Under the pieces are notes generated by a model, which saw nothing but the letters and a program-made list of their open reading frames with translations, searched no databases and was not told the DNA's origin. A DNA stretch of 33,470 bases from Candidatus Limnocylindrales bacterium (GTDB lineage: Bacteria > Desulfobacterota > Binatia > UBA1149 > CAITLU01), in NCBI GenBank assembly GCA_035571835.1, contig DATNBU010000019.1:1-33470 (forward strand), read 5' to 3'. Positions 24,144-26,562 of this stretch are shown here, in pieces. How positions within the stretch are numbered: position 1 is the stretch's first letter; each line of letters starts with the position of its first letter. The position numbers and the translations under genes are program-made.

Positions 24144-25355
24144 GTGAAACGGCGCGTGTACCTCGACCATCATTCGACGACTCCGGTCGATCCGCGAGTC
24201 CTCGACGCGATGCTCCCGTGGTTCACGGAGAAATTTGGAAATGCGGCGAGTCGCACGCACGCGTTCGGCTGGGAAGCCGAGGAGGCGGTCGAAAAAGCGC
24301 GCGGCCAGATCGCGTCGCTGATCGGCGCAGATTCCAAAGAGATCGTCTTTACCAGCGGAGCCACCGAGTCCGACAACCTCGCGATCAAAGGCGCGCTGCA
24401 TTTCCATCGCGCGCGCGGCAACCACATCGTCACCGTGGCCACCGAGCACAAGGCGGTACTCGATTCTGCCAAGGCGCTGGTTCGCGACGGGCTCGCCGAA
24501 GTGACGACCCTTCGTCCGGATTCCAGAGGCCTCGTCGCGGCAACCGATGTGGCTTCCGCAATCACCGACCGCACGGTGCTGGTGTCGGTGATGCATGCCA
24601 ACAACGAGATCGGCGTGATCCAGCCGATTGCCGAAATCGCCCGCATCTGCCGCGAACGCGGCGTACTCTTTCACACCGACGCAGCCCAGAGCGTCGGAAA
24701 AATACCCGTCGACATGCGTTCGATGCCGGTCGACCTGATGTCGATGTCCGCGCACAAATGTTACGGGCCGAAAGGTGTCGGCGCGCTTTACGTCCGCGCG
24801 CGGGCTCCGCGCGTACGTATCACGGCACAGATCGACGGCGGCGGTCACGAGCGCGGCATGCGATCGGGCACACTCAACGTTCCTGCAATCGTCGGGATGG
24901 GAACGGCCGCCGCGATTGCCGCCACGGAGATGGCTGCGGAATCCGCACGCGTGCTCGCGCTGCGCGAACGGCTTCGCGCCGCGCTCGTTCGCGGACTCGA
25001 CCAGATCCAGATCAACGGCGATCTCGAAGCGAGACTGGCAGGCAACCTCAACGTCAGTTTCGCACACGTCGAAGGCGAATCACTGATGCTCGGGCTTCGC
25101 GAGATCGCGCTCTCGTCGGGGTCGGCGTGCAGCTCGGCAACGCTCGAGCCGTCGTACGTGTTGCGTGCGATCGGCGTCAGTGACGAAATGGCCCATTCGT
25201 CGATCCGGTTCGGCATCGGACGTTTCAATACCGAAGACGAGATCGATTACGCCGCCGAGCGCGTGATTGCCGAAGTGCGCAGGCTTCGCACGCTGTCGCC
25301 GTTTTATCGCGAAAGTCCGGTTGCCGCGGCGCGCGGCTCGGAAGGACATCCATGA
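24144..25355 (+). CDS. iscS: cysteine desulfurase, IscS type
   Basis: 403 aa PLP enzyme that removes sulfur from cysteine for Fe-S clusters and tRNA thiolation. The start is a GTG with AAAGGA 6 nt upstream, giving the family N-terminus [23 protein letters not shown] Lys205 lies in [18 protein letters not shown] carries the PLP-ring Asp, and catalytic Cys329 lies in the mobile loop [19 protein letters not shown]. Loop and C-terminus ([18 protein letters not shown]) are clearly group I (IscS/NifS), not SufS. The last residues do not resemble the IscU-docking tail of E. coli IscS. The stop overlaps iscA as ATGA. No IscR, IscU, HscA/B or ferredoxin gene accompanies it. It could also release selenium for SelD. 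Confidence 0.95.
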
Positions 25356-25675
25356 TCACCGTCACCGACAAAGCGGGAACCCGGATCCGCAAGCTCGCAG
25401 AGACTTCGCCTACGCCGGTCAGCGGTCTTCGCATCAAGGTCGTCGGCGGCGGCTGTTCGGGTCTGCAGTACAAGATCGAGCTCGACGCCGAGAAGAAGGG
25501 CGACAAGGTCTTCGAAGGCGCCGGCGGCGGCCGCGTACTCGTCGACCGCAAAAGCTACCTGTACCTGGTCGATACCGTGGTCGACTACGCCGAGAGCCTT
25601 CAGAACGCCGGATTCCAGATCCAGAATCCGAACGTCAAATCGACCTGCGGCTGCGGCGAATCCTTCGTGGTTTGA
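25352..25675 (+). CDS. iscA: A-type iron-sulfur carrier protein (IscA/ErpA family)
   Basis: 107 aa, the family length. Three cluster-binding Cys are at 35, 99 and 101 (GGGCSGLQY and [11 protein letters not shown]), the same numbers as in E. coli IscA. The fold-defining [12 protein letters not shown] and [11 protein letters not shown] blocks are present. It receives Fe-S clusters and passes them to target enzymes. The ATG overlaps the iscS stop by 4 nt, so the two are probably coupled. The sequence does not distinguish IscA from ErpA; the pairing with iscS favours IscA. The usual scaffold gene iscU, normally between iscS and iscA, is absent here. Confidence 0.92.
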
Positions 25676-25685
25676 TCGCTGCCAT

Positions 25686-25705
25686 CGGCCCGTTTTTTAT
25701 GGCCG
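25686..25705 (+). terminator. weak hairpin after iscA
   Basis: CGGCC (25686-25690) and GGCCG (25701-25705) pair around a loop that holds a T6 run, 11 nt after the iscA stop. The T run sits in the loop rather than after the stem, so termination is doubtful. Confidence 0.25.
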
Positions 25706-25766
25706 GGTGCACAAAATCCCTCCGAAGGTCTTGACTCCGTTAGTCGGATCAGCGCACGTGTGTCTT

Positions 25767-25931
25767 GTTGCTCTGAGGGGAAATCGAACAGCCTGCCTCG
25801 AACTTGGAAGCCGACCTTCCAGCAATGGGTGAAGTCGGTTCTGAGATCCGGGTGGAAGCTCCGGTCTGACCGCCGGCGAGGGTCCGGGACTCTTTATCCT
25901 CGGGACCCCAATGCTGCCCCAGGGATGCGAC
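25767..25931 (+). ncRNA. candidate structured RNA or leader (unidentified)
   Basis: The 345-nt gap 25676-26020 has no gene but folds well by eye. An outer stem pairs GTTGC (25767-25771) and GGGG (25777-25780) with CCCC (25917-25920) and GCGAC (25927-25931). Inside are a perfect 6-bp hairpin TGGAAG/CTTCCA (25805-25821), a long apical stem (25836-25872) built of CGGTT, AGA and CCGGG against TCCGG, TCT and GACCG, and a hairpin GGGTCC/GGACCC (25880-25908). Length and rod-with-bubble layout are like 6S RNA, but no signature is recognised. It may instead be the leader of the ORF at 26021. Strand is assumed. Confidence 0.35.
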
Positions 25932-26020
25932 ACGTTCGAAAAGTGGTTGGGTCATTCATCGGTGGATGAGGACGGGATCGACGAAGGGTCGAATCCCGGT
26001 GCGGTTGTGGAGGTTGTAAG

Positions 26021-26488
26021 ATGGAGGAAGCCACTGAGCGTGGAGGTCGGTTCCAGTCCGACGAGCGCCTTCTCGACGTCTTCGATCCGGACATCATTCT
26101 TCCTGCGCAGCACTTCGGTGCGATCCAGCGGAAAAAGTTCCCGTCCGGCGAGCATCGCCTGCTGGTCGCGCTGATCCAGGACGCGATCGAATGCGTGCAG
26201 AAACACATCCATGCACGCGATGCCAAGCGCCGTCAGCTTTTCCTCGACGCGCAGGGCTGGATCGGATCGGAAGACGACCGCGGGGTCTTCTCGTTCAATA
26301 ACGTCTGCATGCTTCTCGGCATGAACCCCGACTACGTTCGCCAGGGCCTGCTCGACTGGTGCGAACGATCGAAGGACCTGCCGCGCGCGCAGCGGCGCCG
26401 CACCGGACCGGAGCGTCCGACGGCGCGCATCGTGCCTGCGCAGGCGTCCGACACCGGCCTTGCGATGGTCGGCGAAAGCGTCGCCTGA
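26021..26488 (+). CDS. conserved protein of unknown function (helical, possibly DNA-binding)
   Basis: 155 aa from an ATG with a strong GGAGG (26009-26013, 7-nt spacing). It begins with a polar stretch, then FDPDIILPAQHFGAIQRKK, a helix EHRLLVALIQDAIECVQKHI, ARDAKRRQLFLDAQGWI, and FSFNNVCMLLGMNPDYVRQGLLDW. That last block resembles a helix-turn-helix pair (short helix, LGMNP turn, recognition-like helix). The final 45 residues are basic and disordered. I believe this pattern recurs in an uncharacterised family in delta-type bacteria, usually as a single small cytoplasmic protein; that is from memory. No function can be assigned. It sits alone behind the structured region at 25.8-25.9 kb and 120 nt before pepA. 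Confidence 0.8.
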   Translation: MEEATERGGRFQSDERLLDVFDPDIILPAQHFGAIQRKKFPSGEHRLLVALIQDAIECVQKHIHARDAKRRQLFLDAQGWIGSEDDRGVFSFNNVCMLLGMNPDYVRQGLLDWCERSKDLPRAQRRRTGPERPTARIVPAQASDTGLAMVGESVA

Positions 26489-26538: not shown

Positions 26539-26562
26539 ACGGTCACGTTAGAACGTGACCGT
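26539..26562. promoter_or_regulatory. perfect 11-bp-arm palindrome upstream of pepA
   Basis: ACGGTCACGTT (26539-26549) and AACGTGACCGT (26552-26562) are exact reverse complements separated by AG. It lies 50 nt after the stop of the unknown ORF and 46 nt before the pepA start. It could be a dimer-bound operator or, as RNA, a strong hairpin ending the upstream transcript; no clean U tract follows directly (CTTTT comes 11 nt later). Confidence 0.55.

Follow-up and report, generated by a model that had tools for sequence, protein, structure and literature searches.

Downstream of iscA, a 345-nt gap separates the isc genes from an uncharacterised open reading frame in the 33,470-nt stretch of DNA analysed here (the window), and the question was what this gap encodes. 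A preliminary description had drawn a structured RNA at 25767-25931 on the plus strand, recalling 6S RNA in size and layout, and had named a cis-acting leader of the next gene as a second option. According to our analysis, 25767-26020 is probably (at a probability of roughly 0.55, judged from sequence comparison) an untranslated 5′ leader that acts in cis on the isc-linked gene which follows it. Kept in the order are a G-rich and GTGG-rich composition, a cluster of GTGG at about −80 to −60 and, immediately 5′ of the ribosome site, a hairpin which, averaged over the set, is better than background. These conserved features lie mostly outside 25767-25931. A literature search on Binatota, the name given to phylum UBP10 (PMC8262859), returned no paper that combines it with either leader RNA or small RNA.

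The gap and gene X

The gap spans 25676-26020, from the end of iscA at 25675 to the start of the next open reading frame at 26021. The last gene upstream of it (25352-25675, plus strand) encodes an A-type Fe-S carrier (Pfam Fe-S_biosyn, 64.2 bits, cut-off 26.3) and was named iscA by reading. A Shine-Dalgarno sequence, GGAGG, is located at 26009-26013, ahead of the start at 26021. The gap first described is real.

The downstream gene, labelled gene X in this report, occupies 26021-26488 on the plus strand and encodes 155 aa. It had been called uncharacterised and conserved; searches against Pfam and NCBIfam gave no family match, and relatives were found in 148 of the 148 genomes of the class searched, at 1 to 17 per genome. 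Ten relatives were counted in the window's own genome (G000), nine in its sister species (G001, the sole other genome of the genus compared) and nine in G005. The best relative of X frequently adjoins isc genes, both within the order and in other parts of the class, the neighbours being named by reading and not by family search. The order was sampled by 13 genomes. By reading, the end of iscA lies upstream of X in seven of them (G000, G005, G006, G008, G009, G010 and G012) and an Rrf2 (IscR-type) gene in three (G003, G004 and G011); in G001, G002 and G007, neither was present within the upstream stretch inspected. Outside the order, the gene read upstream of X was iscA in two cases (L021 and L031), of Rrf2 type in three (L026, L029 and L034) and IscX-like in several members of one family.

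A structure model of X had a mean pLDDT of 68.9, with a helical core (residues 41-120) consisting of blocks at pLDDT 81 to 93 and with low confidence at both ends. Comparison with the PDB by sequence and by fold gave no match (best E 0.77 and 0.35). From its sequence, X may contain a helix-turn-helix at FSFNNVCMLLGMNPDYVRQGL; a weak echo is HTH_29, which Pfam detected in 2 of 33 X relatives (best E 0.0095).

Some further observations were made around X and its family. A perfect 10-bp inverted repeat at 26540-26561 (CGGTCACGTT-AG-AACGTGACCG), possibly a terminator or an operator, lies between X and the leucyl aminopeptidase gene. In L038, L039 and L040, a second X paralog is preceded by a block that is similar among the three genomes and differs from the leader in the window; it is composed of TTTATTTCATG, GTGAATCTTCCAT, GTGTGTTATATGACGC and CGCATCAGGCAC, in that order. 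Two records, L079 (CAMBZJ010000020) and L089 (CAMBFS010000055), are titled Klebsiella pneumoniae MAG yet carry X relatives; these otherwise occur mostly in Binatia-type MAGs, and the Klebsiella titles look wrong.

Composition of the proposed leaders

The proposed leader (25767-26020, plus strand) is G-rich, with a GC skew of +0.19 and four GTGG. Leader starts were placed by eye at a −10-like site. The gap was complete in 12 genomes of the order, own genome included; L020, which has a run of N in its leader, was left out of all 12-leader counts. The leaders of L013, L015 and L016 as counted contain about 60 nt of the end of an Rrf2-type gene, and word counts excluded the last 25 nt, which hold the ribosome site. 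The 12 leaders are not independent, as L011/L012, L018/L019 and L008/L009 are same-genus pairs.

GC skew ranged from +0.19 to +0.39 in all 12 complete leaders. Background gaps, both those from about 433 kb of the own genome and those beside the leaders of relatives, were collected using a simple gene-calling script, and some of them are coding, since the script missed iscS and uvrA in the window; read with this reservation, the 58 same-strand gaps of the own genome had a mean skew of −0.005 (SD 0.075), and a single one reached 0.19. For relatives, ten stretches were available, none of them for L013 or L016, and L133, lying outside the order, was removed. The other gaps beside the nine remaining leaders had mean skews of −0.05 to +0.05, and 15 to 53 GTGG per kb in the leaders compared with 1.4 to 9.4 in these gaps. 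Among those of at least 100 nt (n = 37), one reached a skew of 0.19, two reached 15 GTGG per kb and none reached both. Upstream of the proposed leader start, skew was mostly near zero (−0.43 to +0.24).

The excess extends to specific words. GTGG occurred 52 times in the 12 leaders, compared with 26.2 ± 4.5 after dinucleotide shuffling; GGTGG occurred 28 times (9.0 shuffled) and GTGGTGG 12 times (0.84 shuffled), and for each of the three words 0 of 300 shuffles was as high. TCC was rarer than in shuffled leaders (17 vs 26.3). Among 142 own-genome gaps, the window's gap ranked third in GTGG density and was one of only two with at least four GTGG in the last 260 nt.

A strand-specific excess of G argues for selection at the RNA level. 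The suggestion of a cis-acting leader is indirectly supported by composition, the excess being present in 12 of 12 leaders, rare in other gaps and smaller upstream of the leader start. The same smaller excess upstream would be expected of a plain long 5′ UTR without regulation, whose G-richness and hairpins would stem merely from a need to escape Rho and to keep the mRNA stable, an account that we hold to be rather unlikely. It agrees with the turnover of sequence and fold within the genus (see below) and with the avoidance of Rho by purine-rich sense strands, reported for genes of other bacteria (PMC13323073). The fit to Rho avoidance is partial, because A is low in the leaders (0.05 to 0.22 per 20-nt bin), which are G-rich and not purine-rich. 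Moreover, a plain UTR by itself leaves unexplained why GTGG exceeds dinucleotide shuffles and why it clusters.

GTGG sites and the hairpin at the ribosome site

Positions are given relative to the start codon of X. Of 65 GTGG sites, 18 fall at −79 to −60, distributed over 11 of the 12 leaders (L014 has no GTGG there), and 10 of the 18 read GTGGTKG. The fullest 20-nt window (−80 to −61) held 20 GTGG, against a mean maximum of 11.8 in controls with the sites slid inside each leader, a count that 0 of 5000 controls equalled; when the sister species L012 and L019 were left out, it was 15 vs 10.1 (P 0.013). A motif search over 11 leaders (L019 left out) yielded GTGGTKGK at a score of 115.7, compared with 103.9 ± 2.4 in shuffles (best of 25, 109.1). 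Widths 10 and 12 likewise scored above shuffles; widths 15 and 18 did not exceed the best shuffle. Both the motif and the hairpin window described below were picked after inspection of the data. In the window, the motif appears as GUGGUUG at 25943-25949 (plus strand), 78 nt before the start codon, and a further GUGG at −14 overlaps the Shine-Dalgarno GGAGG (26007-26013, plus strand).

The arrangement GTGGTKG-N33-63-GGAGGT-N3-9-ATG, a pattern derived from these same leaders, matched G000 once, at the X locus. A wider regulon with this arrangement was rejected: over the 13 genomes there were 15 matches, 10 of them away from X (6 in the reversed control), and the five at X came from G000, G001, G002 and G006, X being missed in the other nine genomes.

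Retention of GTGG was followed in three sister pairs. In L018/L019, no change fell in GTGG columns where 3.3 were expected (P 0.019). In L011/L012 there was one change against 3.7 (P 0.07), or none against 2.9 (P 0.03) when the sites of the other row were used; other G-rich words of this pair also changed less than expected (CGGG 3 vs 6.3, GGGT 3 vs 5.3). In G000/G001, four changes compared with 5.3 and 6.2 expected, and GTGG was not clearly better kept. GTGG was unpaired at 0.42, compared with 0.38 for other G/T, which is no clear difference.

These sites could be bound, on either side of the hairpin, by X itself, by a different RNA-binding protein or by a C-rich small RNA, so that X mRNA would be repressed or protected. 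We consider such a binder unlikely. In its favour are the presence of GTGG on both sides of the hairpin in the window, with the 3′ copy over GGAGG, the positional clustering, the score of the motif over the best shuffle, the reduced change in two of three sister pairs and the single match of the arrangement in G000. The sites of G000/G001, the lack of a clear preference for unpaired positions, the leader of L014 and the motif widths 15 and 18 argue against it, as does the absence of a match between X and a solved fold; in addition, a literature search found no paper joining GGUGG, leader, translation and repressor. A fuller version, in which an autoregulatory leader specific to this order of Binatia has GUGG sites read by X, by an RNA-binding protein or by a C-rich small RNA and is tied to Fe-S supply, is a speculative reading of the sequences and slightly more doubtful still. 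If the leader were autoregulatory, covariance methods would miss the element, as it would be conserved in motif content and layout and not in sequence or fold.

The hairpin upstream of the ribosome site lies at 25973-25998 (plus strand), and the 53-nt stretch that holds it had a z of −2.63. Over the 12 leaders, the corresponding stretch (−68 to −16) had a mean z of −1.34, compared with −0.23 for 120 gaps of the own genome (random draws of 12 gaps gave P 0.0016), and z was −2 or below in 4 of the 12 leaders vs 9 percent of gaps. The ribosome-site hairpins of L009, L011 and L018 had z values of about 0. In G001, 8 of the 10 pairs of 25973-25998 are standard, three of them by two-sided changes, and two are broken; three two-sided changes were equalled by 73 of 500 shuffles and by no slid version. 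The Shine-Dalgarno site was not consistently open (openness 0.16 to 0.72). That the conserved elements are found near the ribosome site is further indirect support for the leader; the fold first named is not conserved.

Whole leaders had a mean z of only −0.98 and their reverse complements −1.59, and in the window the opening 55 nt of the leader folded worse than shuffles (z +1.11). RNAalifold on the 12 leaders returned no common structure. Within the genus of the sister species L018/L019, a 5′ hairpin was present in both single-sequence folds, with one double and four single changes, all compatible with pairing. In the structure fitted by RNAalifold to this pair, 41 base pairs contained one double change and six single ones, all consistent, with G-U in one species at six of the seven changed pairs; the lack of broken pairs means little, as RNAalifold derived the structure from these very sequences and returned no broken pair for any of the four species pairs to which it was applied. 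A covariance model of the L018/L019 leader matched its own genus only, including a third species, in which two pieces around a run of N scored 80.5 and 55.9 bits. Leader sequence and overall fold turn over fast, even within the genus of the window.

A fast-evolving DNA element, whose inverted repeats serve as operators and have no role in RNA, appears very improbable. Reverse complements fold as well as or better than the leaders relative to shuffles, and by reading X is possibly a helix-turn-helix protein. Against this, G-U, as found at six of the seven changed pairs of L018/L019, would be a mismatch in a DNA repeat, although this argument draws on a single genus and on a structure derived from the very pair of sequences compared; the strand-specific G excess also fits RNA better.

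For the cis-acting leader that we prefer, transcription would start from its own promoter near 25731-25762. A block at 25730-25762 (plus strand), with TTGACT at 25731, is conserved with G001 (27 of 33 columns identical on alignment A6, counted by eye) and is a possible promoter. Scanning of 25500-26200 for a sigma-70-type site gave none. A cross-genus promoter motif search, which left out L012, L013, L015, L016 and L019, scored 97.4 at width 12 (best of 30 shuffles, 97.2) and not above shuffles at widths 16 and 30; in a second run, also without L009, widths 12 and 30 were likewise not above shuffles. The motif site lay away from the assumed −10 in L008, L009 and L017. The G excess would help the long leader, which is not translated, to escape Rho, and the hairpin would insulate the ribosome site from what lies 5′ of it; the leader would then tune expression of X rather than act as a free RNA.

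Two other elements were considered and rejected. A sigma-54 promoter was dismissed by eye, as was a conserved upstream peptide: in its best frame, L018 and L019 are separated by a stop as well as by amino-acid changes. The weak DNA matches obtained beyond the genus are probably fortuitous; the one that was read (L007) lay backwards in an apparent regulator gene.

The fold at 25767-25931 and comparison with known systems

The preliminary description had drawn, at 25767-25931 on the plus strand, a long-range outer stem closing local hairpins at 25793-25855, 25859-25878 and 25880-25908. Much of this could be reproduced as a minimum free energy (MFE) structure, a multiloop with three hairpins within an outer stem, at a stability expected by chance: −67 kcal/mol compared with −62.9 ± 4.3 in dinucleotide shuffles (z −0.96; this stability was reached by 37 of 200). 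The entire gap gave z +0.63 (73 of 100 shuffles equally stable) and the minus strand z −0.56 (23 of 100).

Alignment of the homologous gap of G001 (A6), proposed earlier as a check on the pairing, went against the named stems, most of which were not kept. Of the 16 pairs of the outer stem, 5 were kept, 6 broken and 5 gapped; of the 24 of hairpin 25793-25855, 11 were kept, 10 broken and 3 gapped; of the 6 of hairpin 25859-25878, 4 were kept, 1 broken and 1 gapped; and all 10 pairs of hairpin 25880-25908 lie inside a deletion. Two-sided changes between G000 and G001 affected one pair of the 56-pair fold, equalled by 247 of 500 shuffles, and 81.7% of cells were paired, compared with 79.5% in shuffles (53 of 500 as high). 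The named fold is unsupported, given its chance-level stability, the absence of an Rfam match, its poor retention in G001 and two-sided changes at shuffle level; it is a chance property of a GC-rich leader.

The preliminary description had seen no recognised RNA family in the gap. Rfam covariance searches of the window returned no family above its curated (gathering) score, and none of the riboswitch or leader families matched the gap above that score. At E up to 10, 25600-26100 gave only mir-9791 (19.5 bits, gathering score 70), and at E up to 1 no family was accepted on the loci of relatives. A simple consensus scan of 25500-26200 gave 0 terminator-like sites, and a transcription-attenuation leader or intrinsic terminator was rejected on this basis.

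The likeness to 6S RNA was not supported. RF00013 matched neither the window at the gathering score nor the stretch 25600-26100 when E values up to 10 were allowed. It was found in 9 of 21 genomes (own genome among those searched; eight over the cut-off), and in each of the nine the best X match was on a different contig. G003 and G004, of the same family as G000, possess both 6S and X, the 6S of G003 lying just under the cut-off. In four loci that were read, the neighbours of 6S were smc, a ygfA-like gene and tyrS, all named by reading. The 6S identity was rejected on the covariance search together with these locations on other contigs, and a free, 6S-like structured RNA, which has size and drawn layout in its favour, is highly improbable given the Rfam result, the absence of a terminator-like site by scan, the chance-level fold mostly not kept in G001 and the placement of 6S elsewhere.

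As a separate observation, five of the family's seven genomes (G000, G001, G002, G005 and G006) gave no 6S match; 6S may have diverged in these, or the MAGs may be incomplete. A ygfA-like gene is present in G001, G002, G005 and G006 and was not found in G000; within about 1.5 kb of this gene in the former four, no 6S was seen at E up to 1.

As a claim of structured RNA, 25767-25931 is ordinary; it is of modest interest as part of a probable leader that belongs to one gene and whose composition and layout are conserved. If the leader is regulatory, it would be an RNA element in which motif content and layout persist although sequence and fold do not, and alignment-based RNA discovery would miss it. 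If it is not, the locus shows neatly how a GC-rich 5′ UTR can produce convincing-looking stems by chance alone. In both cases, it draws attention to a family of small, isc-linked proteins that is unstudied and has relatives in all 148 class genomes searched.

Three known systems invite comparison. 6S RNA is similar in length to the feature in the gap; its shape is a long rod with a central bubble, whereas the MFE structure of the gap is a multiloop of three hairpins, and by covariance 6S is absent from the gap and located elsewhere in relatives. CsrA/RsmA-controlled leaders carry GGA motifs, one of them over the Shine-Dalgarno sequence, and share with the X leaders a repeated short G-rich motif, a copy over the ribosome site and a hairpin in between. 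The X leaders, however, are enriched in GTGG and not in GGA (57 vs 53.1, 83 of 300 shuffles as high) or AGGA (12 vs 8.7, 52 of 300), and a CsrA-type leader was rejected. Bacterial 5′ leaders that place a hairpin close to the ribosome site can be of mRNA-stabilising or standby type; the long UTR and the hairpin just upstream of a strong Shine-Dalgarno sequence are shared with these, and the X leader differs from them in keeping a GTGG-rich composition without conserved sequence and in being described in one order.
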